Shown here: piece by piece, positions 3,727 through 44,175 of the stretch
Position numbering within the stretch: position 1 is the first letter of the stretch
How the letters are laid out: every line of letters begins with the position of its first letter
Source of the DNA: Peptococcaceae bacterium BRH_c4b
GTDB lineage: Bacteria; Bacillota; Desulfotomaculia; Desulfotomaculales; Desulfocucumaceae
NCBI GenBank assembly: GCA_000961595.1
Contig: LADO01000007.1
Coordinates: 1 to 44,175 of the forward strand
DNA: 44,175 nt
Reading direction: 5' to 3'
The notes under the pieces: model-generated
The model's input: only the letters and a program-made list of their open reading frames with translations
Database searches by the model: none
Told to the model about the DNA's origin: nothing
Position numbers and translations under genes: made by a program

Positions 3727-6390
3727 TTATATCTTTTGCACTTCGTACCAGTTATACCCCGCTTTCATATCCACTTCCAGCGGGACGTCCAGGGCCAGGG
3801 CGCTTTCCATCCTGGTTTTTACCAACTCTTTCATTGCTTCGAATTCTTCCAATGGTACATCAAAAATGAGTTCGTCATGTACTTGTAGAATCATTTTGGT
3901 GGCCAGACCGCGCTCCAGTATTTCATCGTAAATACGCACCATGGCCATTTTGATTATGTCCGCCGCGCTTCCCTGGATGGGGGTGTTCATGGCGGTGCGC
4001 TCGCCGAAGCTCCTGACGGTGTGGTTGGAGCTGAACAGGTCGGGCAGGTAACGCCGCCGGTTCAGCAGGGTGGTGACGTATCCTTTTGCCCGGGCCTCGG
4101 CGACTACCCGCTCGATATATTTTTTCACGCCCTGGTAGCGGTTGAAGTAGCCTTCAATATATAGTTTGGCTTCCCGGCGGGGGACCTTGATGTCCCGGGA
4201 CAGCCCAAAATCGCTGATGCCGTATATAATACCGAAATTTACCGCCTTGGCCCGTCCCCGCATCTCCCTGGTAACTTCGCTCATTTTTACGCCAAAAACT
4301 TCGGAGGCAGTCCGGGTATGTATATCCTCCCCGTGTTTGAACGCGTCCACCAGCAGCGGGTCGCCTGACATGTGGGCCAGAATGCGCAGTTCTATTTGGG
4401 AGTAATCGGCGGACAGTATTATGTTCCCTTCCCGGCGGGGTAGAAATACCTTCCTGATTTTTCTACCTTCTTCCATTTTTATGGGTATGTTTTGGAGGTT
4501 TGGTTCCGCGCTGGACAGCCTGCCGGTGGCCGTGACGTCCTGGTGGAAGGTGGTGTGCACCAGCCCGGTTTCCGGGTCAATCAGGGGGGCCAGTCCGTCC
4601 ACGTAAGTTGATTTCAGTTTTACCAGCTGCCTGTGTTCCAGTACGTGGGCTACTATTTCGTGGGAGCCGGCCAGTTCCTCCAGCACTCCCGCGTCAGTGG
4701 AATAGCCCGTTTTGGTGCGTTTGATCACCGGCAGTTCCAGTTTATCAAATAGTATGTAGCCCAGTTGTTTGGTAGAATTGATGTTAAATTTTTCACCCGC
4801 CAGGTGGTGGATGGTACCGGTAAGTTGCTGTATTTTCCCCCCCAATTCGGCGGACATGTCACCCAGGAGCTTATTGTCCACCTTAACACCGGTCATTTCC
4901 ATCTCCGCCAGCACGGCTACCAGGGGCAGTTCAACTTCATAATACAGTCTGTCCATGCCCGTTTCCTCTATTCTGGCGGCCAGCGGTTCCCGCAGCCGGA
5001 GTATGGCTTCCGCCCGGGCCGGGAGGGCCGGTTCGATCCCGGAGGGAAGTACAATTTTTAAATGCTCCAGGGCCACCTCCGGCAGTTCCCTGCTGGGCGT
5101 GGCGGGATTCAGCAGGTAGGCCGCCACCATGGTGTCGAAGGAAAGTCCTTCTAGATATATTCCGTTAGCTTTCAGCAGCCACATGTCATCCTTGGCATTG
5201 TGGCACAGCTTGCGGGTGTTCCGGTCGCCGCACAGTTTTCCCAGCCAAGTCAGCGCTTCGTCCCGGGGGAGTTCGTGCCGGCTGTCCAGGGGCAGATAAA
5301 ATACGTTGCCCGGTATGCTTAAGGCTGCGGCGTGCAGCCCGTTTTTCTTGTCACCGGCCAGGGCCAGGGCGGTCTCGCCTGCAGACTTTATTTTATCCAG
5401 GGCGGCTGCCAGCATTTTTACGCCGGTTATGGTGATATAGCCCACGCTGAAAGTATCGGGTTCCGGGATGGCGTGTGTATCAGTAATGAAACTGCCCTGC
5501 CTGCCCTTGCTTCCTTCCCCGTCCCGGCTGCTCATTATTCCCCTGAGCAGTGTTTTAAATTCAAGTTCGCTGAACAGGGCGAGCAGCCTGGGGTAGTTGG
5601 GTCCCTGCCAGCTGTATAGCTTCATATCCCCGTCCAGGGGTATATCCCGGGTAATGGTGGCCAGACTTCTGGAAAGAAGCGCCTGCTCCGTGAATTCGCT
5701 GATTTTATTTTTAATTCTTGGGGGGAGTTCCTCCCGGTGCTCTATAACTTCTTCCAGTGTGCCGAATTCGCTGATCAGTTTGGAAGCGGTTTTCTCGCCT
5801 ATGCCCGGCACACCGGGTATGTTGTCCGAGGGGTCACCCACCAGCCCTTTAAAGTCGATTAGCTGTTCCGGAGATATGCCGTATTTCTCCCATACTTTGC
5901 CCTCATCGTATTCATCCAGTTCGGTAATGCCCTTTTTGGTCAGCAATACTCTGGTCAGGGGAGAGACTAGCTGCAGGGCGTCCCGGTCGCCGGTGACTAT
6001 GATACTGCTTACGTTCTGTTTTTCTGCCAGTGTGATCATGGTGCCGATCAGATCATCCGCCTCGAAGCCTTCCTGTTCCAATATTCGTATGCCCATGGCT
6101 CCCAGGACCTCTTTCAGCAGGGGAAACTGAGGTCTCAAGTCGTCCGGGGTTGCCTTACGGTGGGCTTTATAGTCGCTAAACTGCTGGTGGCGGAAATTTA
6201 TTTTCCCCTTGTCGAAGCAAACCGCCACCAGGGCTGGTTTTTTCTCCTCCAGTATTTTCAGCAGCATGGTGGTGAAACCGTAAACGGCGTTGGTGACCAC
6301 ACCCTTGCTGGTGGTAAGGGATGGAATGGCGTGATAAGCCCGGTGGGCCAGGCTATTGCCGTCTATCACCATAAATGTTTCCGGGGGCAA
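3727..6390 (-). CDS. polA: DNA polymerase I
   Basis: Fills gaps in repair and removes Okazaki primers. The N-terminal 5'-3' exonuclease domain (about 1-290) has DGNSLAHRAYHA, EADDLIGT, GDRDALQLV and the helix-hairpin-helix GVPGIGEKTA. The polymerase domain has motif A (DYSQIELRILAHMSGD), motif B (RAKAVNFGIIYG) and motif C (QVHDELIFD, near residue 840). In the middle domain I do not see the DxE pair of a working proofreading exonuclease (the matching region reads ETALALAGDK), so 3'-5' exonuclease activity is probably lost, as in several Gram-positive homologues. Length is about 887 residues. The frame can be read from GTG at 6399, but that GTG ends the SD (AGGAAGGTG); TTG at 6390 is preferred. 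It is the first gene of the polA-mutM transcript and diverges from the S41 protease gene. Confidence 0.97.
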   Translation of the reverse strand: MPPETFMVIDGNSLAHRAYHAIPSLTTSKGVVTNAVYGFTTMLLKILEEKKPALVAVCFDKGKINFRHQQFSDYKAHRKATPDDLRPQFPLLKEVLGAMGIRILEQEGFEADDLIGTMITLAEKQNVSSIIVTGDRDALQLVSPLTRVLLTKKGITELDEYDEGKVWEKYGISPEQLIDFKGLVGDPSDNIPGVPGIGEKTASKLISEFGTLEEVIEHREELPPRIKNKISEFTEQALLSRSLATITRDIPLDGDMKLYSWQGPNYPRLLALFSELEFKTLLRGIMSSRDGEGSKGRQGSFITDTHAIPEPDTFSVGYITITGVKMLAAALDKIKSAGETALALAGDKKNGLHAAALSIPGNVFYLPLDSRHELPRDEALTWLGKLCGDRNTRKLCHNAKDDMWLLKANGIYLEGLSFDTMVAAYLLNPATPSRELPEVALEHLKIVLPSGIEPALPARAEAILRLREPLAARIEETGMDRLYYEVELPLVAVLAEMEMTGVKVDNKLLGDMSAELGGKIQQLTGTIHHLAGEKFNINSTKQLGYILFDKLELPVIKRTKTGYSTDAGVLEELAGSHEIVAHVLEHRQLVKLKSTYVDGLAPLIDPETGLVHTTFHQDVTATGRLSSAEPNLQNIPIKMEEGRKIRKVFLPRREGNIILSADYSQIELRILAHMSGDPLLVDAFKHGEDIHTRTASEVFGVKMSEVTREMRGRAKAVNFGIIYGISDFGLSRDIKVPRREAKLYIEGYFNRYQGVKKYIERVVAEARAKGYVTTLLNRRRYLPDLFSSNHTVRSFGERTAMNTPIQGSAADIIKMAMVRIYDEILERGLATKMILQVHDELIFDVPLEEFEAMKELVKTRMESALALDVPLEVDMKAGYNWYEVQKI

Positions 6391-6727
6391 GGCAAGCACC
6401 TTCCTTAGTTTATTTGTTGATCAGCTATTTTAAGTCCGACTATACTATTCAATAGTATGCACCGGTCATCTGTGTGCGGTGCAAGGGTGTACTGCGTCTG
6501 TCAGCAGTTAACAGGACCGTAAAAAATGGCGCTCAGGCCGCTCTCGCGGAGAAACACAGGGATTTCCCGGCCTGTTTATATTATTTCACCGGAAACCGTC
6601 AAAATACCTTTCTTTGAGCCGCCTTAAAGTTTTCTGAGTAGTAAAATAAAGGCAGGAGATTAATTAACGCCGGGAGAATTAATCCATGAGTTAGAACTAG
6701 CAGATAATTAAATTTGAGGTGATTATT
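6391..6727. other. Divergent intergenic region between polA and the S41 protease gene
   Basis: About 335 bp with no credible gene. It must hold promoters for both directions, but no consensus -35/-10 pair stands out. It contains the 17-bp palindrome listed separately and a 7-bp GC-rich inverted repeat (CAGGCCG near 6535, CGGCCTG near 6570). Confidence 0.6.
6442..6458. promoter_or_regulatory. 17-bp perfect palindrome, possible operator
   Basis: Two 8-bp arms, 6442-6449 (ATACTATT) and 6451-6458 (AATAGTAT), around a central C. It lies 52 bp upstream of polA and 270 bp upstream of the protease gene and resembles a dimeric regulator site. No regulator can be named. Confidence 0.35.
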
Positions 6728-8215
6728 TTGCCCCGTCGCTTATTGGTTTTGTTTTTGGTTGTGATCATGCTCATGTCGGCCTCCACGCCGGCTCTGGCTC
6801 TGGCTCTGGATCTGGATCCTTCTACCAAAGCGGTCCTGCAGGTACAGGAAGTTATGGATTATATTTACCGGCACCATATTGACAAGCCGGAATTGAATCA
6901 GCTTTCCGAGGGTGCTATAACGGGCATATTGGAAAGGCTGAACGATCCTTATTCCGAGTATCTGAGCGAGGATATACTGGAAGAATACAAGGAGATGCTG
7001 GACGGGGATTTTGTTGGTGTGGGCCTTAGACTGCAGGAAAACGGGCAATACACGCAGGTGCTGGATTTAATTCCCGATTCACCGGCCTCCCGGGCCGACG
7101 TCAGGCCCGGGGACTTAATCATAAAGGTTAACGGGGAAAATATAGCCGGTTTGTTCCTGGATGAAGTGGTGTCCAAAATCAGGGGTCCGGAAGGAACCAC
7201 CGTTACGCTTACCGTACGCCGGGACTCCCGGGATATCGAAGTTATCCTGAAAAGAACACCCCTTTCCTCACCCACGGTGGTCTCAAGCAAGCTGTCGGGA
7301 AACATAGGCTACATAGTGGTACATTCTTTCGGTTCCCAGACTGCGGATGAGTTTGCAGTTGAGCTGGACAGGCTGGTATCCGAGGGAGTAAAGGGTTTGG
7401 TGATTGATCTGCGTAATACTCCTGGCGGCTATCTGCAAGCCGCCGTGGACATGGCTGGGGATTTCCTGCCGGATAAATCCCTTGTGGTTACCACCGTAGA
7501 CAGGGATTCCATCAGGGATGAATATCGCTCCCGGGGCAACGCTTGCTGGAATGACCCCGTGGTAATACTTATGAATGAATTGACCGCCAGCGCCTCCGAA
7601 GTGTTGGCCGGAGCATTGCAGGATTACGGTAAGGCTGTTTTGTTGGGGGATACCTCTTACGGCAAGGGAGTAGTGCAGAGCATTATTCCCCTGGAGAGCG
7701 GGGGAGCGCTAAAACTTACCACGGCTCGTTACCTCACTCCCAAGGGGCGCTCCATTAACGGCACCGGTCTTGACCCTGACGTGCGGGTGCTAACCCAGGA
7801 ATTGCAGCTTATCCTGGCAAAAAATATAGTCAGCCCCGCGGCTGAAACCGTTGTAAAGTTTAGTTTGATTGATAAAAAGGCTAGTATCAACGGCGAAGAA
7901 ATACCCTTGCAGGCGGCAGCCTACAAGGCCGGGGGAGTAGTTTATGTACCGCTTCGTTTCGCCATGGAGGCACTGGGGTATTCCGTTAGCTGGAATGAGG
8001 ATGCCCGGAGCATTGATCTGGCGGGAAAAAATGAAAATATCCGGCTCTTCGCGAACCGGGCTTCAGCTGTCATCAACGGAAAGGACGCGGCACTGGAAGC
8101 GTCCATAACCACCAGGGAAGGATTGTCATATATGCCGTTGACGGCTGCTATTCCCGGCATTACTGTTGTGGACCGCAGCGATGAGGTAACTATGGTCAAG
8201 GCGGGCAGGAAATAG
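6728..8215 (+). CDS. S41 family carboxyl-terminal processing protease with C-terminal copper-amine-oxidase-like domain
   Basis: Exported serine protease of the CtpA/CtpB type. A signal peptide or anchor covers residues 1 to about 27. A PDZ domain follows (DFVGVGLRL, SPASRADVRPGDLIIKVNG), then the S41 core with the catalytic Ser in ELTASASEVLAGAL and Lys in SYGKGVVQ. The last about 110 residues form a domain of the copper-amine-oxidase N-terminal-like (stalk) type (INGEEIPL, YVPLRFAMEALGYSV), common in secreted proteins of clostridia and related Firmicutes and likely to bind the wall or a partner. Start: GTG at 6719 belongs to the SD GAGGTG, so TTG at 6728 is chosen. The substrate is unknown; CtpB-type enzymes process sporulation signalling proteins. 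Confidence 0.92.
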   Translation: MPRRLLVLFLVVIMLMSASTPALALALDLDPSTKAVLQVQEVMDYIYRHHIDKPELNQLSEGAITGILERLNDPYSEYLSEDILEEYKEMLDGDFVGVGLRLQENGQYTQVLDLIPDSPASRADVRPGDLIIKVNGENIAGLFLDEVVSKIRGPEGTTVTLTVRRDSRDIEVILKRTPLSSPTVVSSKLSGNIGYIVVHSFGSQTADEFAVELDRLVSEGVKGLVIDLRNTPGGYLQAAVDMAGDFLPDKSLVVTTVDRDSIRDEYRSRGNACWNDPVVILMNELTASASEVLAGALQDYGKAVLLGDTSYGKGVVQSIIPLESGGALKLTTARYLTPKGRSINGTGLDPDVRVLTQELQLILAKNIVSPAAETVVKFSLIDKKASINGEEIPLQAAAYKAGGVVYVPLRFAMEALGYSVSWNEDARSIDLAGKNENIRLFANRASAVINGKDAALEASITTREGLSYMPLTAAIPGITVVDRSDEVTMVKAGRK

Positions 8216-8287: not shown

Positions 8288-9538
8288 ATGAAAAAAAACA
8301 GTGCCAAAACCCAACAAAATCAGGGCAGCAGCAAGATTATATATTTAGACCAGATTAGATGGCGCAAGGCAGGCCAGTTGCTCCGCCGTAAACTTGGTGA
8401 GTTCGCTGACAGGACAGCTTTTTTTGATGAAGCTGCCAAAGCGCAGGAAATTTACCTGGACAGCATTGCCTCCGGTTATGGTGACAGGGAAGATGATTTT
8501 ACCATGGAACGCTGTTTTGAATGGTTCATATTTGATTATGTGATGTCCGGGGGCCGGACCCTGATCGAGGATTTTAAAGAAAACCAGATATTTTCCGAAA
8601 TGGAACAACAGCTACTGGCGAACTGGTCCGCCGCCCGTATTTCGGTTTACGAGGTAATTCATGTTTTTCCAGGCAAATGCATGGTTATCAAGGACCTTAT
8701 GCACAGAAATGAATTTACCGTGCAGGACCCCAGCGTGGCTGACCTGGTGGAAGTAGGTACGGTGCTGCTCATGCGGGTCTTGAAGGTGGGGGACGAGTAT
8801 GAGTTTTCCACCAGCGGGCTGGCTCTTCCTGGATTCTGCAAGTTGCCGCTGATGAAGAAAATACAGGATGATTTTACCAGATACCACCGCCGCAAAGGTA
8901 TACCTCACCGGGAGGTCTGGCAGCAATATTTAAGGGACAGGGCACATAAGATCAACGGCTGGGTCATGGAGATAGGTATCAATGCCAGCATGCCCCGCTC
9001 GGTGGATACCGGCAAGACACCGTCCAGGGCTATAATAAGGAATATCTGGGATAAAAGAATAAAGGATCAGCCTACCACTGCTGTTGACCAGAAAATCACC
9101 AATGCCTTCCCGGAGGATTTGGCGGGGAGGGTTCCGGACTTTGAATGGCTTCAGCCCGCTCATGGCCGGGTGGCCGGAACCGTTTCGGAATACCTGGGCA
9201 AAGCGGGGTACGACCGGAAGCAGGTAGAGGGGGCCATTCGGTTATGGCAGGACTACTGCCGTCTGATTAATCCTAAGCTGCGCAAGGAGTCGGTTTGGGC
9301 AGCCACCGTGGTATATGCCGTGGATAGAATGGAATTCAGCGGTATTATCAGCCAGCAGGAGTTGGCGCGCAGTTTTGGGGTGAGTGCGTCCACCATTTCC
9401 GGTAACTTTCGAGCTATTTGTGATGCTCTGGGCCTGATGGCCTATGACCGCCGCTATTCCACCCGCAAATCTCCCCTGGAGGGGCTTGTGGAGTCCAATC
9501 CCTTTTTAGCCAGCATCCTGGAAAATTTCAGATTATAG
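8288..9538 (+). CDS. Uncharacterised protein with TFIIB/cyclin-like C-terminal domain
   Basis: I do not recognise a named family for the whole protein. Residues about 70-190 form an alpha/beta region (CFEWFIFDY, GGRTLIEDF, ISVYEVIHVFPGKCMVIKDL) that recalls the N-terminal part of proteins often annotated with SEC-C motifs, but the SEC-C zinc motif itself is absent. Residues about 314-383 look like a cyclin/TFIIB repeat: ESVWAATVVYAVDRM, then SQQELARSFGVSASTISGNF, in the order seen in archaeal and eukaryotic TFIIB, with a helix-turn-helix at about 353-375. A nucleic-acid-binding or regulatory role is therefore possible but unproven. The ATG has a good SD (GGAGGTGG). It lies 72 bp after the S41 protease gene. 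Confidence 0.7.
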   Translation: MKKNSAKTQQNQGSSKIIYLDQIRWRKAGQLLRRKLGEFADRTAFFDEAAKAQEIYLDSIASGYGDREDDFTMERCFEWFIFDYVMSGGRTLIEDFKENQIFSEMEQQLLANWSAARISVYEVIHVFPGKCMVIKDLMHRNEFTVQDPSVADLVEVGTVLLMRVLKVGDEYEFSTSGLALPGFCKLPLMKKIQDDFTRYHRRKGIPHREVWQQYLRDRAHKINGWVMEIGINASMPRSVDTGKTPSRAIIRNIWDKRIKDQPTTAVDQKITNAFPEDLAGRVPDFEWLQPAHGRVAGTVSEYLGKAGYDRKQVEGAIRLWQDYCRLINPKLRKESVWAATVVYAVDRMEFSGIISQQELARSFGVSASTISGNFRAICDALGLMAYDRRYSTRKSPLEGLVESNPFLASILENFRL

Positions 9539-18985: not shown

Positions 18986-18987
18986 CT

Positions 18988-19110
18988 AGTTGGGGACATT
19001 CCTTCGACCCCAGAGCCATTCCAATCGGGGACATTCCTCCGACCCCAGAGCCAATCTCTAAAGAGAGGTGTGTCCCCATTCCTTTGAAAGAGAGGTGTGT
19101 CTCCTTTCAT
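18988..19110 (+). repeat. Family-A repeat, locus A1 (two 35-bp units plus tail)
   Basis: Two direct 35-bp units begin at 18992 and 19027 (GGGGACATTCCTTCGACCCC / GGGGACATTCCTCCGACCCC), followed by two tail units ending GAGAGGTGTGTCCCC and GAGAGGTGTGTCTCC. The head and tail pair as GGGGACA/TGTCCCC with CCTC/GAGG, so the RNA or single strand forms a long hairpin. It directly follows the clpX terminator. Confidence 0.9.
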
Positions 19111-21437: not shown

Positions 21438-21635
21438 TAGTTGGGGACATTCCTCAGACCCCAGAGCCATTCCAATCGGGGACATTCCTCAGACCCCAGA
21501 GCCATTCCAATCGGGGACATTCCTCCGACCCCAGAGCCATTCCAATCGGGGACATTCCTCCGACCCCAGAGCCAAGCTCTAAAGAGAGGTGTGTCCCCAT
21601 TCCTCTAAAGAGAGGTGTGTCCCCCTTCCTTACTC
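21438..21635 (+). repeat. Family-A repeat, locus A2 (four 35-bp units plus two tails)
   Basis: Four direct 35-bp units begin at 21443, 21478, 21513 and 21548, the first two with TCAGACC and the last two with TCCGACC. Two 26-bp tail units follow (GAGAGGTGTGTCCCC). Orientation is the same as at A1. The rest of the 400-bp hcp-lonB gap (21636-21749) shows only the lonB SD region. Confidence 0.92.
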
Positions 21636-31436: not shown

Positions 31437-31592
31437 TTGGGGACATTCCTTCGTGAAATTGTTAAAGGTAAGGAATAAAAGGAAACACAGAAGGTGTGTC
31501 CCCTTACATAAGTTGGGGACATTCCTTCGCGATATTATTATAAGGTAAGGAATGATGGGAAACACAGAAGGTGTGTCCCCTTACCTTAATAA
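31437..31592 (+). repeat. Family-A repeat, locus A3 (two longer tandem units)
   Basis: Two tandem units of about 75 bp, starting GGGGACATTCCTTCG and ending GAAGGTGTGTCCCC, lie between valS and folC. The stem here is CCTTC/GAAGG where the other loci have CCTC/GAGG, a compensated change. The second unit's tail ends about 17 bp before the folC start. Confidence 0.88.
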
Positions 31593-37855: not shown

Positions 37856-40060
37856 GTGGAAAGAAAAAAATTTGAAAAAAAAGCAAAATATTTTGTTGGA
37901 CTGCTGGCAGGGCTGTTAGTCCTGCTCATGTTCAGGCTAGCTTATATGCAGGTGCTGGAAGCCGACAGGTACCGCACCCTGGCCACCCAAAACCACCAGC
38001 GGCTAATACCGGTGGAAGCGCCAAGGGGTGAGATACTGGACCGTAACGGTGTCCGTATAGTTTCCAATAAACCTGTTTATACGGTATCCCTGGTTTATCT
38101 GGGGCTAAAGAATAACGACAGCGTGATTAACCGGCTGGCCGAGTTATTGTCACTGGAAGAATCATTTAAAGGTGTGACGGCAGATCAGATCAAGGAAGAT
38201 ATGCAGAGTAAACTAAAGGATCACCAGCGGCTGTACGAGCCGGTGAAGGTGGCTTCCAATGTATCCCAGCAAACTGTAAACCGCATTGAGGAACAGCGAC
38301 TGGAACTCCCCGGTGTATCCATTGACGTGGAGCCCGTAAGGTATTATCCTTTCAAGGATTTGATGGGAGAAGTGTCGGGCTATGTCCGGGAAATAACTGC
38401 GGAAGAATTGGAAAAGCAACAAATAGAGGAAAATTCCCAGAATTTTACCACCGAAGAACATCATTATAGCATGGGCGATATGGTTGGTAAGGTGGGCATT
38501 GAGAAAAGTTACGAAGATCAGCTCAGGGGGGTTGGGGGCGCCCGCCTGGTGGAAGTTGACTCTCAGGCCAGACCAGTGCGGGATCTGGGCATTAAAGAGC
38601 CTGTACCCGGGAACAACCTGGTTCTAACAGTTGACTACCGCCTGCAGCGCGCCGCCCAGGACGCCGTGCAGTCCGGCCTGGCCAGGGCAAAGCAGCTCGG
38701 ATACGCCAAGCCTCCCCCGGGGAAGGCTCCCAGCGGGGCTGCGGTGGTGCAGGATGTCAAAACCGGTAAAATACTGGCCATGGCCACCCTGCCGTCCTAC
38801 GATCTGAATATCTTTTCCGGCAATCTTACCGCCGGAGTGTACAGCGATCTAATTAAAAGCGGCGCTTTGAGAAACCACGCTATTCAGTCCATCTATACAC
38901 CCGGCTCCACCTTTAAGATGGCAACGGCCACGGCCTTGCTGGAAAAAAATATAGTAACCCCATCCACCGTTATTAGCGACCCGGGCTATTACAAATACAA
39001 ACATGACTGGAAGCCGGGCGGCCACGGCAGGGTGGATATAATAAAAGCCCTGAAAGAATCTTGCGATACATTTTTCTATATGTTCGGCGCCATAGCCGGG
39101 CCCAGCCCCATTAACCATTATGCCAGAGAATACGGCTTTGGTCAGCTTACCGGGGTTGATTTGCCCGGCGAAGAGGAAGGGGATGTTGCCTCTCCGGAGG
39201 TCAAGAAAAAGCACTGGGAAAACTACCCGGACCCCAGGGTCAGGGAATGGGAATCTCAATGGCATGAATATGACAGCATGGATATGGCCATAGGTCAGCA
39301 GGAGACTAAGATTACTGCCATCCAACTGGTAAATTACATGGCCAGTATTGCCAACGGGGGCATATTATACAGGCCCTATCTGGTGGATAAGGTGATCTCA
39401 CCGGATGGAAGGGTGTTGCAGGAAAATACTACTAAAGAAATAGGTAAGGTGGAGGTTTCGGCTAAAACCCTAAGCCTGATAAGGCAAGGAATACATGAGG
39501 TAACCATTAACGGCGGAACGGCTTCCGGGGTTTTTGCCGGCGCTAACTATACTGCGGCGGCCAAAACCGGAACGGCTGAGGTGGGGGATGCGGCCAAGAA
39601 CAACCATGCCCTATTTGTGGCCTATGCTCCTTACGAAAACCCTGAGATTGCAGTTTCCGTCATCATCGAATACGGCGGTAAGGGCAGCGGTATTGCCGGC
39701 CCGGTGGCCAGGCAGATTATGGATACCTATTTTAACCTTAAAAAGCTACAGAAACAGGAAACCAACCAGGAAAGCAATGATGGCGCCCCGTCCGCAAATG
39801 TCTCCGGCGGCGCCAACCAGGCGCCGGGAGCGGAAACCAGGCGCCCTGGCAACAGCGGGACACCCGCAGTACCACAAACTCCGGGGAATGTGCAGCCGAA
39901 CGGTACTCAGCCGGGAGCCCTGCCCGGGGGCTCCCGGGCTACGGAAGGCACGACTCCTCTTGGTGAGGGATCAGGCCAGGAGGGAGGAGTGGTTCCGCCG
40001 CCACCACCAGGCCAGGACAGCGGTGGTGACGCTCCAACAGGGAGCGCCGGAGATGGTTAG
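37856..40060 (+). CDS. mrdA: Penicillin-binding protein 2 (elongation transpeptidase) with a long disordered tail
   Basis: Class B PBP that crosslinks peptidoglycan during elongation with RodA and MreCD. A membrane helix (about 12-30) precedes the dimerisation domain (VEAPRGEILDRNG, VSGYVREIT). The transpeptidase motifs are TPGSTFK (catalytic Ser), ESCDTFFY in the SxD/SxN position and AAKTGTAE. The last about 100 residues are rich in Gly, Pro, Gln and Asn (VPPPPPG near the end), like the MreC tail. ATG at 37850 abuts the SD AGAGAGGGT, so GTG at 37856 is preferred (734 residues). It starts 18 bp after mreD. Confidence 0.95.
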   Translation: MERKKFEKKAKYFVGLLAGLLVLLMFRLAYMQVLEADRYRTLATQNHQRLIPVEAPRGEILDRNGVRIVSNKPVYTVSLVYLGLKNNDSVINRLAELLSLEESFKGVTADQIKEDMQSKLKDHQRLYEPVKVASNVSQQTVNRIEEQRLELPGVSIDVEPVRYYPFKDLMGEVSGYVREITAEELEKQQIEENSQNFTTEEHHYSMGDMVGKVGIEKSYEDQLRGVGGARLVEVDSQARPVRDLGIKEPVPGNNLVLTVDYRLQRAAQDAVQSGLARAKQLGYAKPPPGKAPSGAAVVQDVKTGKILAMATLPSYDLNIFSGNLTAGVYSDLIKSGALRNHAIQSIYTPGSTFKMATATALLEKNIVTPSTVISDPGYYKYKHDWKPGGHGRVDIIKALKESCDTFFYMFGAIAGPSPINHYAREYGFGQLTGVDLPGEEEGDVASPEVKKKHWENYPDPRVREWESQWHEYDSMDMAIGQQETKITAIQLVNYMASIANGGILYRPYLVDKVISPDGRVLQENTTKEIGKVEVSAKTLSLIRQGIHEVTINGGTASGVFAGANYTAAAKTGTAEVGDAAKNNHALFVAYAPYENPEIAVSVIIEYGGKGSGIAGPVARQIMDTYFNLKKLQKQETNQESNDGAPSANVSGGANQAPGAETRRPGNSGTPAVPQTPGNVQPNGTQPGALPGGSRATEGTTPLGEGSGQEGGVVPPPPPGQDSGGDAPTGSAGDG

Positions 40061-40215
40061 ATTACCGGTGAGATTTGATTTATTGCTGAGAATATTGGGA
40101 GCCGGTGGTAAATGGTAAAATTTTCACCTGCTTTTCTTTTTTTTCTTTACATCATTAGCAGGATTTGGTTATTTGATTGTAGAAAATTTAATCTTGCAGG
40201 GGAGGGAGATCGTCC

Positions 40216-40629
40216 TTGGAAAACTCATATAAAAATCAGGACCGTCACTCCAACGGCGTTGAAGAAACCGCGGGGGATGAAAATACCATACTGATCAAAA
40301 GGACCCTGCGCTCCGGTCAAAGGCTTCACTATGACGGTAATGTAGTTGTCATGGGCGATGTTAACCCGGGGGCTGAGATAATGGCTTCGGGTAATATAAT
40401 AGTTATGGGACAGTTGCGCGGTGTAGTTCATGCGGGAGCGGGCGGAAATGAAAAGGCCATCGTTATGTCTTTTCGTCTGGCTCCTACCCAGTTAAGGATC
40501 GCCAATCATATTACCAGGCCGCCCGACGGCGATACTCAGGAAACTGACCGCCCGGAAATTGCCAGTATAAAAAATGGCGTAGTTACTATTGAACTGTTTA
40601 ATGTCAGTATCGACCGGCAGCACAGGTAA
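40216..40629 (+). CDS. minC: MinC-like septum inhibitor, C-terminal domain only
   Basis: MinC blocks FtsZ assembly away from mid-cell. The protein is 137 residues, while usual MinC is about 210-230. After about 25 polar residues it has the C-terminal beta-helix (IKRTLRSGQRLHYDGNVVVM, NPGAEIMASGNIIVMGQLRG, HAGAGGNEKAIVMSF), which binds MinD. I find no N-terminal FtsZ-inhibiting domain in the 155 bp upstream in any frame. TTG start with GGGAGGGA upstream. It may be a natural short form in this lineage or a degraded gene; the intact SD and frame favour the first. Confidence 0.85.
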   Translation: MENSYKNQDRHSNGVEETAGDENTILIKRTLRSGQRLHYDGNVVVMGDVNPGAEIMASGNIIVMGQLRGVVHAGAGGNEKAIVMSFRLAPTQLRIANHITRPPDGDTQETDRPEIASIKNGVVTIELFNVSIDRQHR

Positions 40630-40671
40630 CAGACATATTATCAAATGCACAGCAGGTTAAGGGAGGACAAA

Positions 40672-41466
40672 ATGATGAGTGAAGTAATTGTTGTTACTTC
40701 AGGCAAGGGTGGTGTAGGCAAAACCACCACCACCGCAAATCTCGGCACGGGCCTGGCTGCCGCCGGACACAAAGCAGTACTGGTGGATGCCGATATCGGT
40801 TTGCGCAACCTGGACGTGGTGCTGGGATTGGAGAACAGAATTGTATATGATATAACTAATGTGACTGATAAGCAAATCCCATATAGAAAGGCTATCATCA
40901 AGGACAAGCGTTACGAAAACCTATTTTTGCTTCCAGCTGCACAGACCAAGGATAAAACAGCGGTCAGCCCGGATCAGATGAAGGAATTGTGCGATGACTT
41001 AAGACAGGAATTTGAGTACGTTATTATTGATTGCCCGGCGGGTATCGAACAGGGTTTTAAAAATGCCATTGCCGGAGCCGACAGGGCTATCGTGGTAACT
41101 ACCCCGGAGGTCTCGGCGGTACGGGATGCCGACCGTATTATCGGTCTGCTGGAGGCCAACGAACTCAGGGACCCCAAACTGATAGTCAACCGTCTCCGCT
41201 ACAACATGGTTAAAGCCGGCGACATGATGAGTATAGATGATATTTTAGACATTCTCGCCGTTGAGCTGCTGGGTGTAGTGCCGGAAGACGAGATGGTGGT
41301 GATCACCACCAACCGTGGGGAAACCGTGGTACAGGACGACAAGTCCCGCTCCGGCCAGGCTTACAGGAACATAGTCCGGCGTATGAATGGTGAGCAAGTT
41401 CCCCTGATGGATTTACAAGAAGGCGGCATATTGAAAAAGTTGCGGAAATTCATGGGCATGAAATAA
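40672..41466 (+). CDS. minD: Septum site-determining ATPase MinD
   Basis: Membrane-binding ATPase that recruits MinC. A deviant Walker A (SGKGGVGKTTT) is at the N-terminus; VDADIGLRNLDVVLGLENR and IIDCPAGIEQGF follow; the C-terminus ends in an amphipathic membrane-targeting helix (ILKKLRKFMGMK). GGGAGG stands five bases before two adjacent ATGs (40672, 40675); 264 residues. The upstream 27 bp of open frame are not coding. Part of this gene (41186-41231) reappears exactly at 44130-44175. Confidence 0.97.
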   Translation: MMSEVIVVTSGKGGVGKTTTTANLGTGLAAAGHKAVLVDADIGLRNLDVVLGLENRIVYDITNVTDKQIPYRKAIIKDKRYENLFLLPAAQTKDKTAVSPDQMKELCDDLRQEFEYVIIDCPAGIEQGFKNAIAGADRAIVVTTPEVSAVRDADRIIGLLEANELRDPKLIVNRLRYNMVKAGDMMSIDDILDILAVELLGVVPEDEMVVITTNRGETVVQDDKSRSGQAYRNIVRRMNGEQVPLMDLQEGGILKKLRKFMGMK

Positions 41467-41485
41467 TAAAAAGGGGGGGAACACG

Positions 41486-41773
41486 ATGCTGGAGTTTATA
41501 TCAAGAATATTCGGCAAGGATAGCTCTCCCAGTAAGAACGTGGCCAAGGAAAGGCTGCGGCTGGTGTTGGTGCATGACCGGACGGATATTTCTCCTCAAC
41601 TCATGCAGGCTTTGAAAACAGATTTGATACAGGTCATTTCAAACTACATGGAAATTGATGAAGCCGCCCTGGAAGTAAGCCTGGACAGCAGTGAGAACCA
41701 GATAGCCCTGGTGGCCAATATTCCTGTCAAGGGTATGAAGCGCTCAGGGAAAGTTGCACCCACCGGCGCTTGA
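41486..41773 (+). CDS. minE: Cell division topological specificity factor MinE
   Basis: Short protein (95 residues) that drives MinD off the membrane and makes the Min system oscillate. The N-terminal helix MLEFISRIFGKD would bind membrane, the anti-MinCD segment is KERLRLVLVHDRTDISPQLM, and the C-terminal part (DEAALEVSLDSSENQIALVANIPVKG) forms the dimer domain. It lies 19 bp after minD, with AAAGGGGGG upstream. It ends the mre-min run at a strong terminator. Confidence 0.95.
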   Translation: MLEFISRIFGKDSSPSKNVAKERLRLVLVHDRTDISPQLMQALKTDLIQVISNYMEIDEAALEVSLDSSENQIALVANIPVKGMKRSGKVAPTGA

Positions 41774-41813
41774 TACTTAAATAACACAGCACGGATGTAG
41801 TGACATTTTTGCC

Positions 41814-41834
41814 AGCTCCTTCGGGAGCTTTTTT
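41814..41834 (+). terminator. Terminator of the min operon
   Basis: AGCTCC (41814-41819) and GGAGCT (41824-41829) with a C(TTCG)G tetraloop, followed by a run of six T (41829-41834). Confidence 0.92.
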
Positions 41835-41844
41835 GCAGTTAAAG

Positions 41845-41928
41845 GTAACTACTCAGGAGTCAGAATGAGAGAACGGTTTATCGTTTCGAATTATCGTTTC
41901 GAAGTATTCTGACTACCTGAATAGTAAC
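41845..41928. repeat. MITE-like inverted-repeat element with internal 13-bp tandem
   Basis: Arms 41845-41866 and 41906-41928 are inverted repeats of about 22 bp with two single-base insertions and one mismatch. Between them TTATCGTTTCGAA occurs twice in tandem (41878-41890, 41891-41903). There is no coding capacity. It marks the border between the min operon and the pckA region. Confidence 0.6.
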
Positions 41929-41946
41929 AAATAAAGTATGTTTAGA

Positions 41947-41977
41947 AGATGGGGTATTCCGGCAAGGTACCCCATCT
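41947..41977 (-). terminator. Hairpin downstream of pckA
   Basis: Perfect 10-bp arms 41947-41956 and 41968-41977. The minus-strand run after it is CTTCTAAA, only weakly U-rich. It lies 20 bp beyond the pckA stop. Confidence 0.6.
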
Positions 41978-41996
41978 CGTGGTAAATCCTTTACAG

Positions 41997-43748
41997 TTAA
42001 AATTCAAATCTTTTAATAAGAGAATCATATTCTTCTTTAATCTTGCCTGGCAACCTGTCAAATTTTCCAAGAAAATCCGCCAGGTCCTTGACCTCCTCTT
42101 TCCATGACTCCCTGTCGACATTTAGCAAGGTTTTCACCATGTCCCGGGAAACGCCCTCCAAACCGCTTATATCAATGTCATCAACCTCAGGTAAATAACC
42201 AATAGGAGTTTCTACAGCACCTACTTCGCCATTACAGCGGGAAAGTATCCAATTCAACACGCGGAGGTTTTCGCCGTACCCCGGCCAGAGAAATTCTCCC
42301 TTTTCACTGGTCCTAAACCAGTTTACATTGAATATCTTCGGAGGGTTGGGGGTCTTTTTGACCATCTTTAGCCAATGGTCAAAATAATCTCCCATATTGT
42401 AGCCGCAGAAAGGAAGCATGGCCATGGGGTCACGCCTGACAACCCCTACAGCGCCGGTTGCAGCCGCAGTGGTCTCTGAGGCCATCGTGGCACCGACGAA
42501 GACACCTTGTTCCCAGTTGAAGGACTGGTATACCAGCGGGGCAATCCTGGCGCGGCGGCCGCCAAACAAAATTGCACTTATAGGTACACCTTTGGGGTTT
42601 TCCCATGCGGGGGATATTGAGGGACACTGGCGGGCCGGCGCAGTAAACCGGGAGTTCGGGTGAGCGCCATTTTTACCGTTTCCGGGGGTCCAGGGATTAC
42701 CCATCCAATCGGTAGCGTACTCAGGAGGTTCAACGCGCATACCTTCCCACCATACGGTTTTCTCGGGTGTTAAAACTACATTTGTAAATATGGTGTTTTT
42801 TGTTGTGGTAAGCATGGCATTCGGATTGGATTTCATGTTTGTACCCGGCACTACACCAAAAAAGCCTGCCTCGGGATTCACTGCCCATAGCCTTCCGTCT
42901 TCACCTACCCGCATCCAGGCAATATCATCTCCAACAGTCCATGCCTTGTAACCTGACAGAGACTTTGGAGGAACCAGCATAGCCAGGTTGGTCTTTCCGC
43001 ATGCGCTTGGGAATGCAGCGGCAATATATGAAACTTCCCCTTTGGGGTTTTCTATACCCAATATAAGCATGTGTTCTGCCAACCAGCCTTCCTGCCTGCC
43101 CATATAGCTTGCCAGACGCAGCGAGAAACACTTTTTACCCAAAAGAACGTTTCCGCCGTACCCGGAACCAATGCTCCATATGGTATTATCTTCAGGAAAA
43201 TGGCAGATAAAGCGCTTTTCCGGATCCAGTTCGCCTTTCGAATGCAGGCCTTTAACAAAGTTACTTGAATCCGCAAGGTAGTCCATAGCGACTTTTCCCA
43301 TTCTGGTCATAATCCGCATATTAAGAACAACATAAATACTATCGGTAAGCTCTATTCCCACTTTACTGAAACCGGAAGCCGCGGGCCCCATCAGATAAGG
43401 TATCACATACATTGTTCTACCCTTCATTGAACCATCAAATAATTTACCAAGCTTTTCATAAGCTTCAGATGGAGCCATCCAGTTATTGGTAGGACCGGCA
43501 TCCTCTTTTTTTGATGTACAAATAAAGGTCAGATGCTCAACTCGGGCAACATCATTAATCGCTGTCCGATGATAAAGACCCCCTGGATATTTTTCTTGAT
43601 CTAACTCGATCATCTCTCCCGTCTTCAGAGCCTGTTTTGTTAATCCTTCTCTTTCTTCCTCAGAGCCGTCTAACCAGACAATATTGTCCGGTTTGGTAAG
43701 TTTGACCATTTCTTCAACCCATTGTTTTACCGCTCTGTTTGAATGCAT
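41997..43748 (-). CDS. pckA: Phosphoenolpyruvate carboxykinase (GTP)
   Basis: Interconverts oxaloacetate and PEP with GTP/GDP, for gluconeogenesis or, in some anaerobes, CO2 fixation with energy gain. The substrate-binding YGGNVLLGKK region, the P-loop FPSACGKTNLAM (near residue 250) and the metal-binding VGDDIAWM (near 275) are those of the GTP class and not of the ATP class. At 583 residues it is slightly short of the usual 590-620 but complete. ATG follows AGGTGG. It faces the min operon and is flanked by AT-rich DNA; its codons look more AT-rich than those of the genes to its left, by eye. No related metabolic gene is near. Confidence 0.95.
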   Translation of the reverse strand: MHSNRAVKQWVEEMVKLTKPDNIVWLDGSEEEREGLTKQALKTGEMIELDQEKYPGGLYHRTAINDVARVEHLTFICTSKKEDAGPTNNWMAPSEAYEKLGKLFDGSMKGRTMYVIPYLMGPAASGFSKVGIELTDSIYVVLNMRIMTRMGKVAMDYLADSSNFVKGLHSKGELDPEKRFICHFPEDNTIWSIGSGYGGNVLLGKKCFSLRLASYMGRQEGWLAEHMLILGIENPKGEVSYIAAAFPSACGKTNLAMLVPPKSLSGYKAWTVGDDIAWMRVGEDGRLWAVNPEAGFFGVVPGTNMKSNPNAMLTTTKNTIFTNVVLTPEKTVWWEGMRVEPPEYATDWMGNPWTPGNGKNGAHPNSRFTAPARQCPSISPAWENPKGVPISAILFGGRRARIAPLVYQSFNWEQGVFVGATMASETTAAATGAVGVVRRDPMAMLPFCGYNMGDYFDHWLKMVKKTPNPPKIFNVNWFRTSEKGEFLWPGYGENLRVLNWILSRCNGEVGAVETPIGYLPEVDDIDISGLEGVSRDMVKTLLNVDRESWKEEVKDLADFLGKFDRLPGKIKEEYDSLIKRFEF

Positions 43749-43785
43749 TTAACCACCACCTGAAATCATATATTCACTTTATAAT

Positions 43786-43813
43786 ATTATATAGATTAGA
43801 TTTGTTATTGAAA
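43786..43813 (-). promoter_or_regulatory. Likely sigma-A promoter of pckA
   Basis: On the minus strand: TTTCAA (43808-43813), 16-bp spacer, TATAAT (43786-43791), about 40 bp before the ATG. Confidence 0.5.
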
Positions 43814-43975
43814 TAGAAAAACTTGAAGTATACAAAATATTTATAAATGCAAAAGAATATATTAAACAGAATGCATAATACAATTCATTGACGAAAAACA
43901 GTATGGTATATATACAAGACGTTATTTTTTATAAAGATATGTGTTATACATAATAATACCTAGCAAATGAATACA

Positions 43976-44004
43976 AAATCCATGCATACGGTATGCATGG
44001 ATTT
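43976..44004. terminator. Strong palindrome, possible bidirectional terminator
   Basis: Arms 43976-43989 and 43991-44004 (AAATCCATGCATAC / GTATGCATGGATTT) are perfectly complementary around one G. It could end an unseen gene to the right or be an operator for pckA; no long T run follows. Confidence 0.5.
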
Positions 44005-44129
44005 ATAACAAATACCCTCAACTAATTTCAAAATAATCACACTATGTATTATAAAAACAATATGAGGGTTTTGTCTTGCAAAGGCTAGAAATACTATATA
44101 ATATTTTGCTTATTTTGTTACATGATTAT

Positions 44130-44175
44130 TCAACCGTCTCCGCTACAACATGGTTAAAGCCGGCGACATGATGAG
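44130..44175 (+). pseudogene. Start of a second, N-terminally cut minD copy (46 bp in window)
   Basis: Identical over all 46 bases to 41186-41231 inside minD. In the minD frame it reads FNRLRYNMVKAGDMM, but a TGA stands two codons upstream (44123-44125) and no start or SD precedes it, so this end cannot encode an intact MinD. The match runs to the window edge and probably continues. It is either a real tandem duplication or an assembly loop. Confidence 0.75.

Follow-up and report, generated by a model that had tools for sequence, protein, structure and literature searches.

The minD-minE region and its right flank

The window, that is, the whole stretch of DNA analyzed here (44175 bp), is the entire contig C3, one of 66 contigs of the assembly. 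Close to its right end it carries the cell-division genes minD and minE, followed on the opposite strand by pckA, and it ends with a short piece of sequence that is already present inside minD. The features discussed below are the following.

40645..41466, + strand: minD, an intact open reading frame of 273 aa with matches to ParA/MinD-type NTPase families in Pfam; the source of the 46-bp copy
41186..41231, + strand: the part of the minD interior that reappears at the contig tip (exact match)
41486..41773, + strand: minE (Pfam MinE, E-value 1e-26; 91% amino acid identity to Desulfocucumis palustris)
41800..41838, + strand: downstream of minE, a terminator-like hairpin with a T run, common to D. 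palustris (by alignment and hairpin)
41846..41938, + strand: palindromic dispersed repeat, located between minE and pckA and matched about 40 times in the genome
41997..43748, − strand: pckA, GTP-type phosphoenolpyruvate carboxykinase, 583 aa (Pfam PEPCK_GTP, E-value 3e-167; genome search)
43749..44129, no strand: AT-rich non-coding DNA upstream of pckA, for which no relative was found
44130..44175, + strand: contig tip, which repeats 46 bp of the minD interior exactly; probably a chimeric extension

The minD-minE pair has 81% DNA identity to the same-genus genome G001, and an alignment with D. palustris is collinear through minE and the terminator hairpin, to about position 41838. From there to 44129, we found no signs of a misjoin. 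The dispersed repeat at 41846-41938 was considered as a possible point of misjoining and is an unlikely one, as its closest other copies are 84% identical over 67-73 bp or 97% identical over 35 bp. This repeat folds into a strong hairpin (-31 kcal/mol, z-score -5.7), is MITE-like, and has some matches in relatives. No Rfam family is found in 40000-44175, the repeat included. A palindrome with 13-bp arms, which could be an operator or a terminator, lies at 43976-44004, about 230 bp upstream of pckA. Elsewhere in the window, at separate places, there are families of 35-, 26-, and 77-bp repeats (21443-21630, 18986-19080, and 31437-31584) with the motif GGGGACATTCCT / GTGTCCCC.

The terminal copy

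The window's final 46 bases (44130-44175) are identical to 41186-41231 by exact matching, with 0 mismatches, on the same strand, and at an offset of 2944 bp. The 47-bp suffix of the window has no second copy, as the 47th base differs. A suffix match of this length has a chance expectation of about 1e-23 in the window, and of about 1e-21 genome-wide, which is negligible. What a sequence-only reading had observed at this tip is correct: the match is exact, and the DNA that precedes the copy is AT-rich and unrelated. In a search of the 3,624,575-bp genome, the terminal 46-mer occurs exactly twice, both times on C3. Because the window is a complete contig, the copy is the physical end of the assembled sequence; it stops at 44175, and nothing is assembled past it.

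The match can be extended leftward by 7 bases at the cost of one gap and one mismatch, to 53 bp at 96% identity. An extension is also seen for 23% of random AT-rich 12-mers, so this similarity is not meaningful homology, and microhomology at the 44129/44130 join is rejected as no better than chance. Two other candidates were also discarded. A circular contig does not fit, as the first bases of the window match neither its end nor anything else in it; and the copy does not stem from a known repeat or a mobile element, since the 46-mer is otherwise single-copy. No mobile or recombination feature is seen at the junction.

Contig tips across the assembly

We compared both ends of all 66 contigs (132 tips) against about 1.05 of the 3.62 Mb, mostly contig ends. 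BLAST reports a terminal match at 92 of the 132 tips, and in 79 of these 92 the match is at least 146 bp long. The 13 shorter ones fall into three kinds: six are the ends of three pairs of adjacent contigs that were left unmerged (33-39 bp), six lie in short repeats, tandem or dispersed, and the remaining one is the right end of C3. At no other tip is the only partner a protein-coding site that is single-copy and internal to a contig. The lengths of the exact terminal overlaps span 0-2453 bp, and none recurs or is favoured; they measure 23-42 bp between adjacent unique contig ends, and mostly 146-2453 bp at repeat tips. At one other tip, the right end of contig C1, the longest match is likewise 46 bp; it lies in a dispersed repeat and extends to 92 bp at 96% identity. 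Among the tips of the 66 contigs, and within the ~1.05 of 3.62 Mb covered, no other has a short unique direct self-match like that of C3, and the idea of a systematic population of back-jump tips was dropped.

As a control, contig C53 (L299) shows what a real tandem duplication looks like in this assembly. A fumarate-reductase-like flavoprotein gene is present there at 6130-7503 and again at 8563-9318, the copies being 98.9% identical and 2.43 kb apart, and the contig ends within the second copy, at least 750 bp into it. Real tandem repeats thus do end contigs in this assembly. C53 and C3 are alike in having a terminal direct repeat of an interior gene located 2-3 kb upstream on the same contig. 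They differ in that the second copy in C53 runs for at least 750 bp with 1.1% divergence, whereas that in C3 has 46 bp and none.

Genes missing to the right of the contig

In Desulfocucumis palustris NAW-5, the gene order is minE, rodA, M23 peptidase, M50 peptidase, histidine kinase, response regulator, NYN, and radical SAM, with Pfam families assigned for the first three. We counted neighbours in 69 relatives, each with more than 2.5 kb of sequence downstream of minE. In 63 of them rodA is found within 1.5 kb of minE, usually with the M23 and M50 peptidase genes next, and none of the 69 carries another minD within 9 kb downstream of minE.

The orthologs of rodA, M23, and M50 are absent from the assembly, where the best matches (45%, 31%, and 31% identical) are located elsewhere; the same searches recover full-length rodA and M23 matches in four relatives. 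The next conserved genes, NYN and radical SAM, are at the start of contig C26, whose first 400 bases hold an IS3-like orfA and recur at other contig ends. Since the orthologs are absent and the next conserved genes open C26, there is a real gap to the right of C3. Most likely, a piece with rodA, M23, and M50 is missing between C3 and C26, and the apparent absence of these genes is an assembly gap due to dropped short contigs; the smallest contig in the assembly has 5776 bp. The genome is rated 100% complete, and yet it lacks these three genes. To infer from this assembly that the lineage has lost rodA or the M50 (SpoIVFB-like) gene would be misleading. An earlier warning, that gene order to the right of 41773 should not be trusted unchecked, is partly right: order is collinear to about 41838 and free of misjoin signs to 44129, and the warning holds to the right of 44129, where rodA, M23, and M50 are missing.

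A chimeric contig tip as the preferred reading

We put at roughly 0.65 the probability that the terminal 46 bp are an artefact, of whatever kind, in a draft contig whose end is ragged. The segment is foreign to its surroundings and lies at the extreme end of the contig, and its source is otherwise single-copy in 3.62 Mb. Also in favour are the shortness of the copy next to most other tips with a terminal match and to C53, the single assembled pckA, and the finding that the AT-rich DNA upstream of pckA is on no other contig by genome search. The join between 44129 and 41186 would then have arisen in the library or in the assembly, not in the chromosome. Contigs breaking at repeats are usual in this assembly, which speaks against an artefact, as this pattern would also fit a real second minD fragment.

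On this view the assembly runs out to the right of pckA, at a thinly covered tip, and the last bases of C3 would derive from a chimeric library molecule, or a handful of them, joining 44129 to 41186. The simplest such molecule would be a piece of genomic DNA of about 2.94 kb that had been circularised by self-ligation. In a read over its ligation point, the right end of the fragment would be followed directly by its left end, with the orientation unchanged, as in mate-pair libraries made without a linker. The same-strand back-jump of 2944 bp at the C3 tip has this geometry. Standard Illumina mate-pair libraries, for which fragments up to 5 kb are suggested, carry no recognisable junction, and reading through it gives chimeric reads (PMC3253782). 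The likeness to the junction reads of a mate-pair or jumping library is thus a direct right-to-left join of a fragment of a few kb with no linker. The difference is that here the pattern is present at one tip only. A common artefact would be expected to leave similar junctions at other tips, although a single one need not, and none was found in the ~1.05 of 3.62 Mb compared. Going by geometry, we regard circularisation in particular as a tentative choice within the artefact reading, rather less than an even bet.

In practice, the tip is better treated as unreliable; at face value it would point to a cell-division gene that is broken or duplicated.

Alternative explanations

The alternative that fares best is a real partial duplication. 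The chromosome would then read minD-minE-pckA-minD'(3' part)-minE'-rodA-M23-M50, and the assembler would have stopped at the second copy. pckA could have entered between minE and rodA with or before the duplication of minE and the 3' part of minD, either by a Campbell-like integration or by tandem duplication of 41186-44129. Most tips with a terminal match do break in repeats, C53 ends in a real tandem gene duplicate, and a copy of 46 bp with no mismatch is what a recent duplication predicts. In this arrangement rodA would stand behind a minE, where 63 of the 69 relatives have it, and the lost segment with rodA, M23, and M50, about 4-5 kb long as a contig, would fall short of the smallest contig retained (5776 bp). 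A true partial duplication keeps some probability, because most breaks in this assembly come from repeats and the contig that should adjoin C3 is absent. On the other hand, the tip covers no more than 46 bp of the copy, where 79 of 92 tips have 146 bp or more; C3 passes the supposed repeat entrance at 41186 unbroken; the junction has no mobile or recombination feature; and a second minD after minE is not seen in any of the 69 relatives. In the genome search, no other contig has minD or minE sequence beyond one short weak match. We consider a real duplication unlikely. The tandem repeat of minD(3' part)-minE-pckA that had been proposed from the sequence gains no positive support: pckA is assembled once, no other contig has minD/minE sequence beyond that weak match, and almost every other repeat-driven tip has a much longer copy.

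A more specific version is somewhat more doubtful still. In it, a duplicative Campbell-like insertion of pckA after minE would have placed a truncated minD copy and an additional minE before rodA, so that the organism would carry minE twice and have its min operon split. If the copy were real, a duplicative insertion would have brought pckA into a conserved cluster of cell-shape and sporulation genes.

Very improbable, in our judgment, is a fixed k-mer overlap, in which the assembler left the k-1 shared bases where its graph re-entered minD. De Bruijn k-1 overlaps do leave a short exact repeat at a contig end as in C3, 46 bases would fit k = 47, and the right end of C1 has a longest match of that length; but the overlap lengths are not constant over the 132 tips (0-2453 bp), they have no peak, and the 46 bp of C1 are part of a dispersed repeat (92 bp at 96%). 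A fixed k-1 overlap is thus rejected for the C3 tip. The sequence-only reading had left the choice between a repeat and an artefact open, the artefact being a contig closed on itself at an assembler k-mer. An artefact is indeed favoured, not in that form: 46 recurs only at C1, at a dispersed-repeat tip.

We give as little weight to a chimera of whole-genome amplification (MDA) in place of a ligation chimera: MDA does produce chimeras within one molecule, joined at short complementary stretches, but 85% of its junctions are inverted and only 11 of 475 are direct joins within 10 kb (PMC1855051), whereas the C3 join is direct and has no clear microhomology above chance, and a genome rated 100% complete would be unusual for a single-cell product. 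The mostly inverted nature of MDA chimeras, together with the same-strand 2.94-kb geometry of C3, leads us to prefer a ligation or circularisation chimera.

The apparent pckA insertion

A genome search finds pckA as a single copy in the assembly, and it is 72% identical to the copy in genome G027. The nearest genome compared was Desulfocucumis palustris NAW-5, of the same genus, as no second genome of the source species was found; it has no pckA match, in an assembly rated only 84% complete. Downstream of minE, pckA is found in 0 of the 69 relatives (flanks of more than 2.5 kb), and within the order near full-length copies are limited to a few relatives. This patchiness is suggestive of horizontal transfer or repeated loss. 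The insertion of pckA after minE appears to be genuine, and it looks lineage-specific.

Other observations

On C53, the frame at 4346-5359 of L299 encodes an HflX-like GTPase whose C-terminus looks frameshifted, which could be due to a pseudogene or to a sequencing indel. The right end of contig C13 (L080) and the left end of contig C52 (L057) hold arrays of about 32-bp repeats, spaced 66-67 bp and CRISPR-like, which are probably one array split between both contigs.
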